Assembly: GCA_017990495.1 (NCBI GenBank)
Contig: JAGNNV010000009.1
Location: 1 to 38,239 of the forward strand
From: Vicinamibacteria bacterium
GTDB lineage: Bacteria; Acidobacteriota; Vicinamibacteria; Fen-336; JAGNNV01
Direction: 5' to 3'
Length of the DNA stretch: 38,239 bases
Part shown: positions 19,673 through 26,514 of the stretch, one piece after another
How the letters are laid out: every line of letters begins with the position of its first letter
How positions within the stretch are numbered: the first letter of the stretch is position 1
Notes under the pieces: model-generated
Seen by the model: only the letters and a program-made list of their open reading frames with translations
Database searches by the model: none
Told to the model about the DNA's origin: nothing
Translations under genes and position numbers: made by a program

Positions 19673-20902
19673 ATGCCCTATTTCGAACTCGATCCGCTGC
19701 TCAACAAGATGCTCGACTTCGCGCCCGGCATCTCCGACTTGAACATGTCGGTCGGGCGTCCGCCCCAGGTCGAGCTCGACGGCCAGCTGAAGGGCGTCGA
19801 CTACATGGGGATCGACAAGCTCTCCCCCTACCAGACCGAACAGATCGCCATGCGCCTGATCGGCGGCAAACGCGACGTGGCCGACAAGCTGGTCAAGACC
19901 GGGTCCACGGACTGCTCCTACTCGCTCTCCGGGCGCACCCGCTTCCGCGTGAACATCTTCGCCCAGCGCGGCACCTTCTGCGTGGTCATGCGCGTCATCC
20001 CCAGCAAGATCCCCACGATCGAGCAGCTCGGCATTCCCCCCGTGCTCGGCGACATCGCTCACGAGCGTAACGGCATCGTTCTGGTGACCGGGCCCACGGG
20101 TTCAGGAAAATCGACCACCCTCGCCGCCATCATCAACAAGATGAACCTCGAGAAGTCGATGCACATCATCACCATCGAGGACCCGATCGAGTACCTGCAT
20201 CCGCATCACAAGTCCACGATCAACCAGCGCGAAGTGGGCACCGACACCCAGACCTTCGCCCTCGCTCTGCGCGCCGCCCTGCGCCAGGCCCCCAAAGTCA
20301 TCCTGGTCGGCGAAATGCGCGACGTGGAAACCATCTCCATCGCCCTTGAAGCCTCGGAAACCGGCCACCTTGTGCTCTCGACCCTGCACACCATCGACGC
20401 GGCGAAAACCATCGAACGCATCGTCGGCGTGTTCCCCCGCTCCGACGAGCGGCAGGTCCGCACCCGTTTCTCCGCGGCCTTCAGGTGGGTCGTCTCTCAG
20501 CGCCTCGTGCCCAAGATCGGCGGAGGTCGTATCGGCGTCTGCGAAATCCTGCGGTCCACCTCGCGAACGCGCGAGTACGTTCTCGAGGGCGAGCGCGACG
20601 GCAAGAGCCTCCACGACGCCATGGAAGACGGGCAGCTCGACGGGATGCAGACCTTCGACAACGAACTGTATCGCCTGATCAACGAGGGCATCGTCGACCG
20701 CGAACTTGCGCTGTCCTACGCCACCAACCGCACGAACCTCCAACTGAAGCTCGACACTCAAGGAGTGGGCGGCGACAAGGCCGAGGAAGAGGCGAAGGAG
20801 CAGAAGGGAACGAAGTCGACCATGGGCGCGAAGGCCCCGCCTCCGGGCAAGAAGGGCGCCGCGCCTTCAAAGACCGACATGGACGATCTCCTGGAAAGGT
20901 AA
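19673..20902 (+). CDS. pilT: Type IV pilus retraction ATPase PilT/PilU family
   Basis: A 409-aa secretion-type ATPase of the cytoplasmic pilus base. The N-terminal PAS-like domain (about 1-110) includes [18 protein letters not shown]. The C-terminal RecA-like domain has Walker [10 protein letters not shown] (140-148), the Asp box [11 protein letters not shown] (167-176), Walker [10 protein letters not shown] (209-217) with Glu214, and the His box HLVLSTLHT (232-240). This is the PilT/PilU order; ATP hydrolysis depolymerises the pilus. A charged, low-complexity tail of about 45 residues ([11 protein letters not shown] ... DMDDLLER) extends beyond the core. PilT and PilU cannot be separated by eye. 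The neighbouring zinc-ribbon gene starts 6 bases after the stop. Confidence 0.93.
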
Positions 20903-20908
20903 CCGAAG

Positions 20909-21580
20909 ATGCAAGCCACCTGTTCCTCCTGCGCGAATGTCGTCACCGTCGACGAAAACAATCCCAAGCTCCCCGCCGGGCCGTTCTCGGTCAAGTGCCC
21001 CAAGTGCCAGACCCCGGTGAGATTCCCGGGTCGCCCGGCCAAGGCCGCGGCCCCCGCCGCCGCTCCGGCCGCCGCTCCCGCCCCTGCTCGCGAGCCGGCC
21101 GCTTCCGCCGCGCCGCGGGCCAGCATTCCACTCAAGCCCACCGCACTTCCCGGTGAACGGGCCCTCGTGGCTCTCGACGATCAGCAGCGCGCGGGGGAAA
21201 TGGCGCGCAGCCTGGAACTGCTCGGTTACGAAGTCGACATCATGTCCGACACGGACGGGGTGCGCGCCATCGAGCAGGCGGCTCACGTCATCGTGGTCAT
21301 GGCCCGCACCGTGGCTGAGGGCGGGGCTCTCACCTGCTATCAGCGCCTGTTCCTGCTCAACTCCGACATCCGCCGAGGTTTCTTCCTCATCCTCGTGGGT
21401 GACGAGTACACCACCGGCGACGGAGTGCAGGCTTTCGTGGTCCATGGCGACATGGTGATCGCCTCTCCCGACGCCGATTCGTGCGAGGTGATCGTCCGCG
21501 AGCGACTCATCGAGAGGGGCCGCCTCTTCCGCGCCTTCATAGACTGCAAGCGCAAGAACGAGGCGTCCACCGCGGTTTGA
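20909..21580 (+). CDS. Zinc-ribbon protein with receiver-like domain
   Basis: A 223-aa protein. The N-terminal ribbon (1-45) has CSSC (Cys5/Cys8) and CPKC (Cys30/Cys33) in the MJ0042-type pattern CPxCxTPVRFP. An Ala/Pro linker follows (47-85). Residues about 93-210 fold like a response-regulator receiver: RALVALDDQQRAGEMARSLE, then LLGYEVDIMSDTDGVRAIEQ, then VIVVMART. The usual phosphorylatable Asp is not evident (VVMAR lies where a D is expected), so it is probably a pseudo-receiver. Its place directly after pilT suggests a regulator or adaptor of pilus retraction. Function is inferred from context only. Confidence 0.65.
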   Translation: MQATCSSCANVVTVDENNPKLPAGPFSVKCPKCQTPVRFPGRPAKAAAPAAAPAAAPAPAREPAASAAPRASIPLKPTALPGERALVALDDQQRAGEMARSLELLGYEVDIMSDTDGVRAIEQAAHVIVVMARTVAEGGALTCYQRLFLLNSDIRRGFFLILVGDEYTTGDGVQAFVVHGDMVIASPDADSCEVIVRERLIERGRLFRAFIDCKRKNEASTAV

Positions 21581-21620: not shown

Positions 21621-23804
21621 TTAGTTGCGCGCGGCCGGGCCGTAAACGCGGAGCGCGTAGTCGCGGGCCATGCGGCGGGCCGAGAAACGCGGAGCGATCG
21701 TGGCGATCGAGGCCTTCATCATGCGCGTCCATTCCGTCGATGCGCCGGGAACCGCGGCGCCGAAGAAGTAGGGAATCACCCGTGTCTCGAGCTCGCGGTA
21801 GAGGGCTTGCGCGTCCAGAGCGTCCTGGCTCTCCTCGAGCTTGATCTGAGCCAGCGCGGCCGCGGCGAGCGGATCCTGAGGGGACTCCCCGGGGGCAAAT
21901 TCGGCGGGCGGGGCGTCGCCCCCATCGATCAGGAAGCCGTTCTCGCCGTCATACCCCTCGGCCCACCAGCCGTCGGCGATGGAGAGATTGAGGGCCCCGT
22001 TGATGGCGGCTTTCTGGCCGGACGTTCCCGACGCCTCGAGCGGTTTCCTCGGGGTGTTGAGCCAGACGTCGACGCCCTGCACCAGCATGCGCGCCATGTC
22101 GATGTCGTAGTCCTCGAGGAAGACCACCCGCCCGGAAAGCTCTCCGCGCGATAACACCGCCAGCTGCCGGATGTACTCCTGACCTTCGCGGTCGGCGGGA
22201 TGGGCCTTGCCGGCGAAGATCAACTGCACCGGCCGGTGGGGATCGAGCAGGAGCTTCTTCGCCCGCTCGAAGTCCTGCAGAAGCAGAACCGCGCGCTTGT
22301 AGGTTGCGAAGCGCCGCGCGAAGCCGATGGTGAGCGCGGCGGGGTCGAGCAGGCTTTCGAGCCGCCGCAGTTCGGACGGCCCCGAGCCTTCGCGGGCCGC
22401 CTGCTTGCGAACGCGCTCACGCACGTAACGCACCAGACGTTCCTTTTGCGACCGGCGCGCCGCCACGAGTCCCTCGTCGGAAGCCTCGCGCAACTTCTGC
22501 CAGGCTTCGGGCTCGAGAAGCCGCGAGCCCCACTCGGGGTCGAGTTCCCGGGCGAGGTAGGCCCGTATCTCCGGGCCGATCCAGGTCTCCGTGTGCACTC
22601 CGTTCGTGATGGCGAACACCGGGGACTCATGGTTTTCCGGGAAGAGATGTTTCCACATCCCCGAGGAGACCCGCCCGTGCAGTTCGCTCACCCCATTGGT
22701 GCTGGAGGAGAAGCGGATCGAGAGGGTGGTCAGATTGAACAGGCCCTCGTGGGCGCCCAGGGCGATCACTTCGTCGACGGCGACGCCGGTATCCCGCGAC
22801 CATGGTTCGAGGTGCTGCCGGACCAGGTCGAAGGCGAACACCTCATTGCCGGCCGGCACCGGGGTGTGGGTGGTGAAGACGGTGTTGCGTTTCACCGCGG
22901 CGCAGGCGTCCTTGAAGTCTTCGCCGCGCATCACCCGCTCGCGCACCCTTTCGAGGGCCAGCATGGCCACGTGGCCTTCGTTCATGTGCCACACCGCGGG
23001 TTTGATCCCGAGCGCCTGCAAGGCCCGGACGCCGCCCACCCCGAGGACGATTTCCTGGGCCAGCCGCATTTCACGCCCGCGTACATAGAGCAGGCCCGTG
23101 ATGGCGCGATCGGCCGGCTCGTTCAGGGGGATGTCGGTGTCGAGGAAGAACACGCGCACCCCGCCCACCCGAGCCACCCACACCAGAGCATGAACCACGC
23201 GACCGGGGAGATCGACAGGGACGGTGAGCGGACCACCCGAGGGCGAACGCACCGGCTGCACCGGCAGTCGCGCGAAGTCGTAGTCGGGATAGATGTGCTG
23301 CTGGAAGCCGTCGGCGTCGACGGTCTGGCGAAAGTAACCCGAGCGATAGAGCAGACCCACCCCGAAAAGGGGCAGGCCGAGGTCGGAGGCCGCCTTGCAG
23401 TGGTCGCCGGCCAGCACGCCGAGGCCACCCGAATACATGCCGAGCGACTCGTGCAGCCCGAACTCCATGGAGAAATAGGCCACCGGGCCGGGGAGGAGGC
23501 CGGGCTGCTCGTCCATGAACCTCCGTGCGCCCCGGCTCGCGTCGAGGCCGGCCATGGCCGCGTGGTAGGCGGCCATGAACTCGGGATCGCTGAGCAGGCC
23601 TGCCCATTTCTGGGGATCGACGTTGATGAGCAACTCGACCGGATTGTGGTAACGCCGCCAGTGTTCAGGATCGATCCAGGCGAAGAGCATTGACGCCTTC
23701 GGATTGAAGCTCCACCAGAGGTCGTAAGCCAGGTCCCGAAGACGCTCGACCTCCGCGGGGAGGTCGAGGTCGGCAATGGGCAGGGTTTGGATGTTCAGGG
23801 TCAC
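21621..23804 (-). CDS. glgP: Alpha-glucan (glycogen/maltodextrin) phosphorylase, DUF3417 type
   Basis: A 727-aa cytoplasmic enzyme that releases glucose-1-phosphate from alpha-1,4-glucans. The N-terminal block NPVELLINVDPQKWAGLLSD and LRDLAYDLWWSFNPKAS identify the DUF3417-containing short phosphorylase group. VAYFSMEFGLHESLGMYSGG (about 108-127) and KPAVWHMNEGHVAMLALERV are family hallmarks. The PLP-binding Lys598 sits in EASGTSGQKAAINGALN. Length is typical for this group and shorter than classical glycogen phosphorylase. The ATG overlaps the PilZ-protein stop by 4 bases (ATGA), so translation is coupled. Other glycogen genes are not in the window. Confidence 0.94.
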   Translation of the reverse strand: MTLNIQTLPIADLDLPAEVERLRDLAYDLWWSFNPKASMLFAWIDPEHWRRYHNPVELLINVDPQKWAGLLSDPEFMAAYHAAMAGLDASRGARRFMDEQPGLLPGPVAYFSMEFGLHESLGMYSGGLGVLAGDHCKAASDLGLPLFGVGLLYRSGYFRQTVDADGFQQHIYPDYDFARLPVQPVRSPSGGPLTVPVDLPGRVVHALVWVARVGGVRVFFLDTDIPLNEPADRAITGLLYVRGREMRLAQEIVLGVGGVRALQALGIKPAVWHMNEGHVAMLALERVRERVMRGEDFKDACAAVKRNTVFTTHTPVPAGNEVFAFDLVRQHLEPWSRDTGVAVDEVIALGAHEGLFNLTTLSIRFSSSTNGVSELHGRVSSGMWKHLFPENHESPVFAITNGVHTETWIGPEIRAYLARELDPEWGSRLLEPEAWQKLREASDEGLVAARRSQKERLVRYVRERVRKQAAREGSGPSELRRLESLLDPAALTIGFARRFATYKRAVLLLQDFERAKKLLLDPHRPVQLIFAGKAHPADREGQEYIRQLAVLSRGELSGRVVFLEDYDIDMARMLVQGVDVWLNTPRKPLEASGTSGQKAAINGALNLSIADGWWAEGYDGENGFLIDGGDAPPAEFAPGESPQDPLAAAALAQIKLEESQDALDAQALYRELETRVIPYFFGAAVPGASTEWTRMMKASIATIAPRFSARRMARDYALRVYGPAARN

Positions 23805-24460
23805 GCGAGGGAGTTGCTCGCGAGGAATGTCTTCAATGCCTCTTCGCCTTTGGTAATGGAAGTGAAGCGGGCCCCGTATCGATTGGGCCCTGCGGTGCGG
23901 GTGATATGCGCGTTGGCCGAGAATAGTTCACGCGACTCCTCGAAACGGAGGGTGAGGCTGACCTCGTCGCCCATGTTGAGCTGATGATTCGATTCGAGCA
24001 GGATGCCGGTGGCCGAGAGGTTCTGGGCCAGCACCGGCACGGTGGACCCGAAGCCGCTGCTCGCCACCACCTGGAGCCTTACCGGGAGCCGCACGTCCTT
24101 GCGGGAAGGGACTTCGATCAGCCGACCCACCCTCTCGTCGAAGTCGTCGGCGGTGGGCAGGCGAAGAATCGCGTTGGCGCCCGCTTCCAGCAGTTCGATT
24201 TCAGAAGGGTCGAAATCGTCCTCGGAGAGGACCACGATGGAGATGCGCTTGAGGGGCGACCGGCGGAGGGTTTTGATCAACGCCTCGATGCCCGCCACGT
24301 TGCGGTGGATACAGAGCAAGGCCACCGGACCCCCGGCGAGGCGAGCCTGCACCTCGGCCACGGAGCGGACCTGGACCCTCTCGATTCCGGACCTGAAAAG
24401 CACGGTGTCCTGAAGATCCCCGTCGAGGGAACGGCTTGAGCAAATGAGAACAACGGCCAT
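23801..24460 (-). CDS. Receiver-like plus PilZ domain protein (probable c-di-GMP receptor)
   Basis: A 219-aa protein. Residues 1-115 are receiver-like (VVLICSSRSLD, VALLCIHRNVAGIEAL, ISIVVLSEDDF) but lack the phosphorylation Asp pocket. Residues about 118-215 form a PilZ domain with both c-di-GMP motifs: RKDVR (120-124) as RxxxR and NLSATG (147-152) as [DN]xSxxG. Binding of c-di-GMP is therefore plausible. It starts 15 bases after nadE and overlaps glgP by 4 bases. The genes on the other side of glgP are pilT and another receiver-like protein. It may control GlgP, pilus function or both; the sequence cannot decide. Confidence 0.8.
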   Translation of the reverse strand: MAVVLICSSRSLDGDLQDTVLFRSGIERVQVRSVAEVQARLAGGPVALLCIHRNVAGIEALIKTLRRSPLKRISIVVLSEDDFDPSEIELLEAGANAILRLPTADDFDERVGRLIEVPSRKDVRLPVRLQVVASSGFGSTVPVLAQNLSATGILLESNHQLNMGDEVSLTLRFEESRELFSANAHITRTAGPNRYGARFTSITKGEEALKTFLASNSLA

Positions 24461-24475: not shown

Positions 24476-26419
24476 CTACTCCATCTGCTCCAGCCAGGCC
24501 GTGGGCCTTGAGTCGGAGGGCATTCTGAAGTCGCCCCGCGGAGAGAGGCTCACCGAGCCGACTTTGGGACCATCGGGCGCCACCGACCGCTTGAACTGCG
24601 CGGTGAAGAAACGCTGCACGAAAACGCGCAGCCACTTGCGCAACGTGGCCTCGGAGTAGGTATCGGCGAAGGCCGCCTCCGCCAGGAACAACATCTTGGG
24701 CGGCGAGGCCCCAAGACGGAGGAAGGCGTGGAGGAAGAAGTCGTGCAGCTCGTAAGGGCCGACGATGTCTTCCGTCCTCTGGCTCATCTCGCCCCGTTTT
24801 CCAGGGGGCAGGAGTTCGGGAGAGATGGGGAGCGCCAGCACCTGCTCGAGCGCTTCCTTCTCGGTGGCGTGCAACGGGTCTTTGGCCGCCTCGGCGACGA
24901 GCAGCCGGACCAGAGTTTTGGGCACCGAGCCGTTCACGTTGTACATCGACAGGTGATCGCCGCCGAACGTGGTGAAGCCGAGGGCGAGTTCGGAGAGGTC
25001 GCCGGTGCCGACCACGAGGCCGCTCTCCTTGTTGGCGAGGTCCATGAGGACCTGAGTGCGTTCGCGGGCCTGCGCGTTCTCGAAGGCCACGCTGCGATCC
25101 TGAGAAGTGAGACCGATGTCCTTCAGGTGCTGCTCGCAAGCGGGCCTTATGTCGATCTCCTCAACCAGAACGCCCGCGGCCTCGGCCAGGCGGAGGGCCA
25201 GAGACCGGGTTCTTGTGGTGGTGCCGAAGCCGGGCATGGTGACGGCGAGGATGGACTTCCGCGATCGGCCGAGCAGGCCGCAGGTCTTGATGGCCACGAG
25301 GAGCGCCAGGGTGGAATCGAGGCCGCCCGATAGCCCGAGGATGAGTTTGCGCGAACGGGTGTGTTCCCATCGGCGAGCCAGGCCCGCGGTCTGGATATCG
25401 AAGATCTCCGAACACACGCTCGACAGGGTGCTCTCATCGCCAGGCACGAAGGGCGTCGGATTGACCGCGCGCAGCAGCCGGGCCGGACGTGGAGGGGCCA
25501 TCGGATCGAGCCACACCACACGGGTGGGTTGAGCCGTGTTCCCGGTTTCGGCGAATGTCTTCTGCCGCATCCGTTCGACGGAAAGGCGCTCGACATCGAC
25601 GTCGGTGGCGAGCAGTTCGGCCTCGCGGCGAAACCGGCGATTCTCGGCCAGCAGGATGGCGTTCTCGGCCACCATCAGATGGCCGCCGAACACCAGGTCG
25701 GTGGTGGACTCGTGGACGCCCACGTTGGCGAGGACATAGGCCGAAAGGGTGCGGCCGCTGTGCTGCTTGATCAGGTCGCGCCGATATTCGGCTTTGCCGA
25801 TGCCCTCGTTCGAGGCCGAGAGATTCCCGAGCACGGTGGCGCCGGCCTGGGCGAGGCGCACGCTTGGGGGGGTGGGCACCCAGAGGTCTTCGCAGATCTC
25901 GAAGCCCAGAGCCAGGTTCTCTTCGCCCTTGACCCGAAACACGAGGTCGGCGCCCGCGGGCACCGTGGCGCCGAGGATCTCCATTTCTCCACGCACGGCG
26001 TCGCGCGCCGGGGAGAACCAGCGGCCCTCGTAGAACTCCTTGTAGTTGGGAATGTACGACTTCAGGATCAGGCCGAGCACCCGGCCGCGCTGCAGGATGG
26101 CCGCCGCGTTCCAGAGGCGGGAGTCCCGGAAGAGGGGCAAGCCCACCGCGATCGTCATGTCGAGACGGGAGGTGCGGGTGCGCAGGGTCTCGAGAGCGGC
26201 CTCGGCCGAGCGCAGGAGGGTTGCCTGCTGAAAGAAAAGATCAGCCGCGGTGTAGCCCGAAATTCCCAGTTCCGGGGTCACCAGAAGCTGGACTCCTTTG
26301 GCCCGCGCCTCAGCGACGAGCTCAAGGATCTCCGCCACATTCCGGGCGGGATCCGCGATGTGCGCCCGCGGGCAAGAGGAGGCCACCCGAAAGAAGCCGT
26401 GCCGCGTGGTGCCTTTCAT
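24476..26419 (-). CDS. nadE: Glutamine-dependent NAD+ synthetase
   Basis: From ATG at 26419 the protein has 647 aa. The N-terminal nitrilase-type glutaminase has the triad Glu50 (TPELGISGY), Lys120 (LILKSYIPNY) and Cys176 (EICEDLWVP), and releases ammonia. The C-terminal synthetase has the pyrophosphatase loop SGGLDST (364-370). VVGTGDLSELALGFTTFGGD and NVNGSVPKTLVR also follow the family. It amidates nicotinic acid adenine dinucleotide with ATP. The start at 26419 is preferred because GAGAGG lies about 10 bases upstream and homology begins right after it; an upstream in-frame ATG at 26485 would add 22 residues. It is divergent from the TPR gene and heads the nadE-PilZ-glgP run. Confidence 0.95.
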   Translation of the reverse strand: MKGTTRHGFFRVASSCPRAHIADPARNVAEILELVAEARAKGVQLLVTPELGISGYTAADLFFQQATLLRSAEAALETLRTRTSRLDMTIAVGLPLFRDSRLWNAAAILQRGRVLGLILKSYIPNYKEFYEGRWFSPARDAVRGEMEILGATVPAGADLVFRVKGEENLALGFEICEDLWVPTPPSVRLAQAGATVLGNLSASNEGIGKAEYRRDLIKQHSGRTLSAYVLANVGVHESTTDLVFGGHLMVAENAILLAENRRFRREAELLATDVDVERLSVERMRQKTFAETGNTAQPTRVVWLDPMAPPRPARLLRAVNPTPFVPGDESTLSSVCSEIFDIQTAGLARRWEHTRSRKLILGLSGGLDSTLALLVAIKTCGLLGRSRKSILAVTMPGFGTTTRTRSLALRLAEAAGVLVEEIDIRPACEQHLKDIGLTSQDRSVAFENAQARERTQVLMDLANKESGLVVGTGDLSELALGFTTFGGDHLSMYNVNGSVPKTLVRLLVAEAAKDPLHATEKEALEQVLALPISPELLPPGKRGEMSQRTEDIVGPYELHDFFLHAFLRLGASPPKMLFLAEAAFADTYSEATLRKWLRVFVQRFFTAQFKRSVAPDGPKVGSVSLSPRGDFRMPSDSRPTAWLEQME

Positions 26420-26514
26420 CTCTTGAGTGCCTCTCCCAAGGCAAGCATAAGGGAGCGCTCCGATTCGGACCGCGAGGTTCATCACATGCGCGCCGCCCGT
26501 GCCAGAATCTCAGG

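Follow-up and report, generated by a model that had tools for sequence, protein, structure and literature searches.

A conserved pilZ–glgP gene pair in an order of Vicinamibacteria and its possible role in c-di-GMP control of glycogen breakdown

Whether a bacterium might govern the use of its stored sugar through a dedicated sensor of the second messenger cyclic diguanylate (c-di-GMP) is a question raised by a gene neighbourhood on contig JAGNNV010000009.1 of a Vicinamibacteria bacterium (GenBank assembly GCA_017990495.1). In the 38,239-nucleotide stretch of that contig that was analysed (hereafter 'the window'), a gene for a PilZ-domain protein (pilZ) immediately precedes and overlaps the gene for an alpha-glucan phosphorylase (glgP), both on the minus strand. 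Comparison with related genomes established that pilZ and glgP constitute a real, tight and order-conserved gene pair, and that the PilZ protein retains an intact sensor motif. The pairing, which recurs across the order, suggests c-di-GMP control of stored-sugar use; that the PilZ protein is a c-di-GMP-responsive adaptor that would act on GlgP, and set the rate of glycogen breakdown, is a reading of the sequences that we regard as evenly poised between right and wrong. The features of the pair are as follows.

23801–24460, minus strand: pilZ, encoding a protein of 219 amino acids with a degenerate receiver-like domain and a PilZ domain; putative c-di-GMP-responsive adaptor
24089–24103, minus strand: RKDVR, c-di-GMP motif 1 (pilZ residues 120–124)
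24005–24022, minus strand: NLSATG, c-di-GMP motif 2 (pilZ residues 147–152)
23801–23804, minus strand: GTGA overlap of the glgP start (GTG) and the pilZ stop (TGA), read from the sequence
21621–23804, minus strand: glgP, encoding an alpha-glucan phosphorylase of 727 amino acids with a DUF3417 N-terminus

The conservation of the pair was established in a sample of 17 genomes from the order, set within a class sample of 149 genomes, itself a subset of a larger group. A relative of the PilZ protein was found in all 17 order genomes, and 15 of them place pilZ immediately 5' of a glgP in the same orientation; these 15 are exactly the genomes that possess a close GlgP, 64–87% identical to that of the window over the best matching piece. 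The remaining two are G009, which has only distant PilZ relatives and no GlgP match at E 1e-60, and G010, which has only a 45% identical GlgP, encoded on a different contig from its weak PilZ relative. Of the 80 best-matching glgP loci from named genomes, nine have a PilZ gene directly upstream, all of them from Acidobacteria/Vicinamibacteria; these nine (L034–L040, L049 and L054) correspond to order genomes already counted and were not counted again, and weak PilZ matches were found 4–6 kb from glgP at four other named-genome loci. The adjacency is more than chance, because it holds in all 15 genomes with a close GlgP, while the window's outer neighbours lose their place in a second family of the order.

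The latter observation came from mapping 20 open reading frames (ORFs) of the window onto 16 stretches, none longer than 20 kb, taken from further genomes of the order; the pair is present in 14 of these, and the other two are contigs of G010, which has its glgP and its PilZ gene apart from each other. Within the genus most of the compared neighbourhood is retained; in the second family only five of the mapped ORFs keep their place (nadE, pilZ, glgP, a zinc-ribbon gene and pilT), and four further ORFs give matches of only 29–37% that lie out of place. The pilZ–glgP link is found in 14 of 14 relatives' stretches, nadE adjoins the PilZ gene or a tandem pair of such genes in 11 of 13 (the contig of G011, locus L181, ends too early), and the zinc-ribbon gene and pilT lie downstream in 11 of 13 (that of G015, locus L185, ends too early). 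The pilZ–glgP link is the most constant in the compared stretches, although no significance is claimed for this constancy because the difference from its neighbours is small. The flanking genes that keep their place are as follows.

24476–26485, minus strand: nadE, encoding an NAD+ synthase that includes an amidase-like domain; opens the presumed operon
20909–21580, plus strand: zinc-ribbon gene, conserved C-terminal region; convergent conserved neighbour
19673–20902, plus strand: pilT, encoding a PilT-family ATPase; convergent conserved neighbour

The two plus-strand genes (19673–21580) represent a second conserved unit, convergent with nadE–pilZ–glgP, which the sequence-only reading from which this analysis began did not mention. 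PilT was identified by NCBIfam TIGR01420 (399.8 bits, cut-off 319.1); the zinc-ribbon protein, which Pfam Zn_ribbon_4 matches only below its cut-off, has four cysteines that are invariant in nine of nine aligned sequences. On the other side, the nadE product matches NCBIfam PRK02628 (829 bits) and the Pfam families NAD_synthase and CN_hydrolase. Its longest reading frame, extending to 26485, probably starts too early (the extra part being 26420–26485), and the true start is probably the ATG at 26419, because the PRK02628 match begins at residue 22.

The possibility that nadE, rather than glgP, is the closer partner of pilZ was considered and rejected. In one genus (g3, represented by G004 and G005), the place upstream of pilZ is taken by an opposite-strand gene for a protein with a DNA-binding domain; nadE stands 4.6 kb away in G004 and is not found within the 7.6 kb examined in G005. 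Despite this rearrangement, which in the two genomes is probably the product of one event, pilZ and glgP still share the GTGA overlap. In two other genomes (G007 and G008, loci L179 and L180), nadE and glgP flank a tandem of two receiver-PilZ genes. In the tree of the copies, whose deep branches are weak, the second of the two G007 genes clusters with the glgP-adjacent genes of G012 and G013, which have one each there (support 92/88, below the tool's own mark of 95/80); this hints, weakly, at an ancestral tandem pair of which either copy was lost elsewhere while one stayed.

The manner in which the two genes are joined varies across the order. In the window, nadE and pilZ are separated by 15 bases, the spacing given by the sequence-only reading, and pilZ and glgP share four bases on the minus strand, again as that reading stated; the shared letters, however, are GTGA and not the ATGA that it gave, and the GTG is the sole candidate start for glgP in the window's frame. 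The same GTGA overlap is present in five of the 15 genomes with the pair (G000, the source of the window, G001, G002, G004 and G005), G004 possessing an additional, later GTG candidate. Both candidate glgP starts of G003 fall inside pilZ, and in the other nine genomes a start candidate lies approximately 30–71 bases past the pilZ stop, with earlier candidates existing as well in three of these (G011, G012 and G013). The translational coupling originally proposed is therefore a fair inference for the five genomes with the GTGA overlap and does not extend to the order as a whole: judged from gene spacing, some genera plausibly couple the translation of the two genes, while all order genomes that have the pair plausibly make a common pilZ–glgP transcript. 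Between positions 20800 and 26700, no promoter-like sites were found (0.3 expected), and the four terminator-like sites (3.7 expected) represent no excess over shuffled sequence.

The domain architecture of the PilZ protein was examined by family profiles and by structure prediction. Pfam assigns PilZ to residues 120–213 (44.3 bits against a cut-off of 22.5, E 2.4e-11) and names that family only, with a further sub-threshold match to RCK and no receiver; NCBIfam provides only a sub-threshold match to TIGR02266. An AlphaFold2 model, built from a 21-row alignment, displays an alternating beta-alpha domain (residues 2–116) followed by a beta barrel with a C-terminal helix; its mean predicted local distance difference test score (pLDDT) is 85, and the mutual placement of the domains is uncertain because the predicted template modelling score (pTM) is 0.59. 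Foldseek matched the first domain mostly to receiver domains and the second to the PilZ domains of Alg44, CeSA and MotI. A profile of the family, compared with the sequences of solved structures, matched the PleD receiver (E 5e-9), and in the solved-structure profile search MotI/DgrA (YpfA, 5vx6) was the only PilZ protein among 32 matches (positions 117–214, E 0.0034). The N-terminal receiver-like domain had gone unmentioned when the locus was read from sequence alone.

The two c-di-GMP motifs that had been described as intact, RKDVR and NLSATG, withstood comparison: R120, R124, S149 and G152 are invariant in all 21 aligned relatives, position 147 is asparagine in 20 and aspartate in one, and the RxxxR and [D/N]xSxxG signature of c-di-GMP-binding PilZ domains is present in 21 of 21. 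The first domain differs in this respect. Canonical receivers carry an acidic pair after strand 1, an aspartate acceptor after strand 3, a serine or threonine after strand 4 and a lysine after strand 5. An acidic residue at positions 6–8 is absent from all 21 aligned rows (some have glutamate at 9–10); among the 15 glgP-linked copies, position 52 is aspartate in nine and histidine or tryptophan in six, position 79 is serine in three, and the strand-5 position 100 is arginine in 13, proline in two and lysine in none. The 21-row alignment thus describes a receiver fold that lacks the canonical phosphorylation residues, and judged by these residues the protein has kept its predicted c-di-GMP site and lost its phosphorylation site. 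A phosphorylation-controlled response regulator was rejected as an interpretation since the canonical residues are missing. Within the genus, the rate of nonsynonymous substitution (dN) of pilZ is 0.15–0.18 and that of synonymous substitution (dS) is 1.1–1.8, a saturated value, alongside a dN of 0.09–0.13 for GlgP and of 0.15 for NadE (one pair); by these estimates, pilZ evolves under constraint.

The presumed target is a phosphorylase whose nearest relatives in named records come from Vicinamibacteria (Acidobacteriota). GlgP matches NCBIfam TIGR02094 with 763.5 bits (cut-off 191.7) and the Pfam families DUF3417 and Phosphorylase, and contains the sequence EASGTSGQK, whose lysine, K598, we take to be the probable pyridoxal phosphate lysine of the motif EASGTSxxK. 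The glycogen synthase family GT5 was matched in 16 of the 17 order genomes and not in G010; this last genome, which is 98% complete, thus lacks both a close GlgP and a GT5 match, and is counted in favour of the adaptor proposal. On the side of the signal, GGDEF matches were found in all 17 order genomes, their cyclase function being a prediction only, and the MAG (metagenome-assembled genome) that is the source of the window (4.2 Mb in 472 contigs, 76% complete) has 31 GGDEF matches against three PilZ matches; it is likely, from these counts, to have many makers of c-di-GMP and few PilZ receptors.

In its fuller form, the proposal is that the order controls GlgP through a dedicated and separate PilZ adaptor, with a phosphorylation-dead receiver as docking module and a c-di-GMP switch, a version that we advance tentatively and with somewhat less than even confidence. 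The PilZ barrel would bind c-di-GMP through R120, R124, N147, S149 and G152; the degenerate receiver-like domain would provide a docking face for GlgP; binding would alter, by allostery, the activity of GlgP or its access to glycogen; and the cell's c-di-GMP level would in this way set the rate of glycogen breakdown. The close linkage of the genes, with its four-base overlap in some genera, would lead to both proteins being made together, presumably from the same mRNA.

Direct c-di-GMP control of glycogen breakdown is itself already known, whereas no PilZ–GlgP pair is described in the literature that was searched, which was covered by title and the start of the abstract and left subscription papers mostly outside. 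In Streptomyces venezuelae, c-di-GMP binds the debranching enzyme GlgX and activates it allosterically (PMC9530166), and two reviews give GlgX as a c-di-GMP-controlled glycogen enzyme (PMC10519070, PMC12564702). The two systems are alike in tying c-di-GMP to glycogen breakdown (PMC9530166), and differ in that GlgX itself binds the messenger, while in the present case sensing would fall to a separate PilZ protein and the proposed target is a phosphorylase; the word PilZ does not occur in the main text of the GlgX paper (PMC9530166). By analogy with GlgX, we lean slightly towards activation as the effect on GlgP.

Among known PilZ proteins, MapZ and HapZ of Pseudomonas aeruginosa are adaptors that act on partner proteins, and resemble the present case in that c-di-GMP would be relayed to a partner by a small PilZ protein made as a separate chain; the differences are that a glycogen enzyme is proposed as the partner, that a degenerate receiver domain is present, and that the protein is encoded beside its presumed target. 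Both are named among PilZ effectors in one review (PMC10519070). The PilZ folds of CeSA (4i86) and Alg44 (4rt0) likewise possess a c-di-GMP site and a role in polysaccharide metabolism. Those proteins act in the synthesis of secreted polysaccharides, in membrane proteins or complexes, whereas the present proposal concerns the breakdown of a storage polymer inside the cell. Bacillus subtilis MotI/DgrA resembles the protein in its PilZ half, which matches the family profile, and differs in its N-terminal domain and its target, MotI being a flagellar inhibitor of motility.

A number of observations weigh against the proposed action on GlgP, the most serious of which concern genomes outside the order. 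In a class-wide profile search, in which the 20 best first-look candidates were scored per genome, the receiver-PilZ profile matched at E 1e-20 in the 17 order genomes and in none of the 132 class genomes outside the order, and GlgP was found at E 1e-60 in 117 of the 149 class genomes. Upstream ORFs, 201 in total, were obtained at 83 of the 86 glgP loci examined outside the order, and from these 149 were scanned (at most the two longest per locus); the receiver-PilZ profile matched none of the 149. A loose motif pattern applied to all 201 gave six matches, none PilZ-like by eye; the profile of the PilZ half, applied to the 77 longest upstream ORFs, gave a best match of only E 0.11, the working control being a whole-length family profile that recovered the order's own copies; and Pfam detected no PilZ in the same 77, among the 25 of 58 families listed. 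It is here, in the failure of these searches to find independent recurrence outside the order, that the functional reading is weakest.

The remaining objections arise within the order. Four aligned paralogues that are not adjacent to glgP retain the same PilZ residues, and the motif is therefore not specific to the glgP-linked copy; only three alignment columns set the glgP-linked copies apart from the others, and in a tree of the 21 copies the glgP-linked ones do not form one group (three changes, with weak deep branches). Constancy close to that of the pilZ–glgP link is also seen in the convergent zinc-ribbon and pilT genes, although these two cannot belong to the operon, and part of the conservation may reflect a quiet island; the linkage could also signify joint expression only. 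The source MAG shows only weak, partial GT5 matches, and G009 (63% complete) matches glycogen synthase strongly while giving no match to GlgP. In G008 the glgP reading frame is interrupted, running over two frames and containing a TGA (L180, 7852–9838), which represents either a pseudogene or an assembly error.

Several side observations attach to these surveys. The lack of GlgP in G009 may reflect incompleteness, and G008 holds another, more distant GlgP. The most frequent of the families listed for the 77 upstream ORFs outside the order were PALP (10), glucosamine isomerase/6-phosphogluconolactonase (four), G6PD (three) and GH57 (three), and the branching-enzyme C-terminal domain was found in three. 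A general bacterial pairing of PilZ with glgP, which was considered separately, is not supported by the scanned ORFs, a survey of any PilZ gene beside any glgP not having been made. A survey of adjacency, proposed when the pair was initially described, has given a positive and clade-specific answer: within the order it rules out a lack of conserved adjacency, which had been named at the outset as a result that would count against the idea, and at the loci scanned outside the order it found no pair.

The most durable of the alternatives, which we nevertheless consider unlikely, is that pilZ is merely expressed together with its neighbours in a nadE–pilZ–glgP unit and acts elsewhere in the cell, where surface polysaccharide, motility and a kinase are conceivable targets. 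A plain operon would fit the 15-base gap and the GTGA overlap, the excess of GGDEF over PilZ matches in the source MAG makes a general role possible, and the targets of PilZ proteins are diverse, according to a review (PMC10519070). Shared expression fits less well with the behaviour of genus g3, which splits off nadE and keeps pilZ–glgP together; with the receiver-PilZ paralogue found elsewhere in the same genomes, for which queries from G000 and G006 found no adjacent gene common to the families; and with the persistence of the adjacency even though, in the second family, the PilZ proteins encoded next to glgP share only 30–40% identity with that of the window.

It is improbable that the PilZ protein works instead with the convergent pilT and zinc-ribbon genes on type IV pilus retraction, glgP being a bystander or an energy supply. 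A pilus link was among the possibilities raised at the outset, and it draws weak support from the conservation of that pair within the same island (11 of 13 loci); the pair, however, lies on the opposite strand, was not found in the approximately 8 kb examined in G008 and in G011, both of which keep pilZ–glgP, and is separated from glgP by inserts of approximately 1.1–3.1 kb in G003, G005 and G006. The small PilZ protein of the pilus, moreover, has a layout other than that of receiver and PilZ. Finally, that the arrangement is a quiet syntenic island, in which chromosome breaks are rare and proximity has no functional meaning, is about as improbable: the convergent pair outside the operon is nearly as conserved and one ancestral arrangement may underlie all of the adjacency, yet genes beyond the island do not hold their positions in the second family, some genera have nadE or the pilT side separated from the pair while pilZ–glgP is separated in none of the 15 genomes, and the grouping of the G007, G012 and G013 copies, although below the tool's mark, hints that either copy may be lost while one stays.

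If the adaptor proposal is correct, c-di-GMP control of reserve breakdown would have arisen at least twice, with different enzymes and different sensors, and PilZ adaptors would gain a target in carbon storage. The analysis in any case points out a small gene pair in bacteria that are known here mainly from metagenome assemblies.

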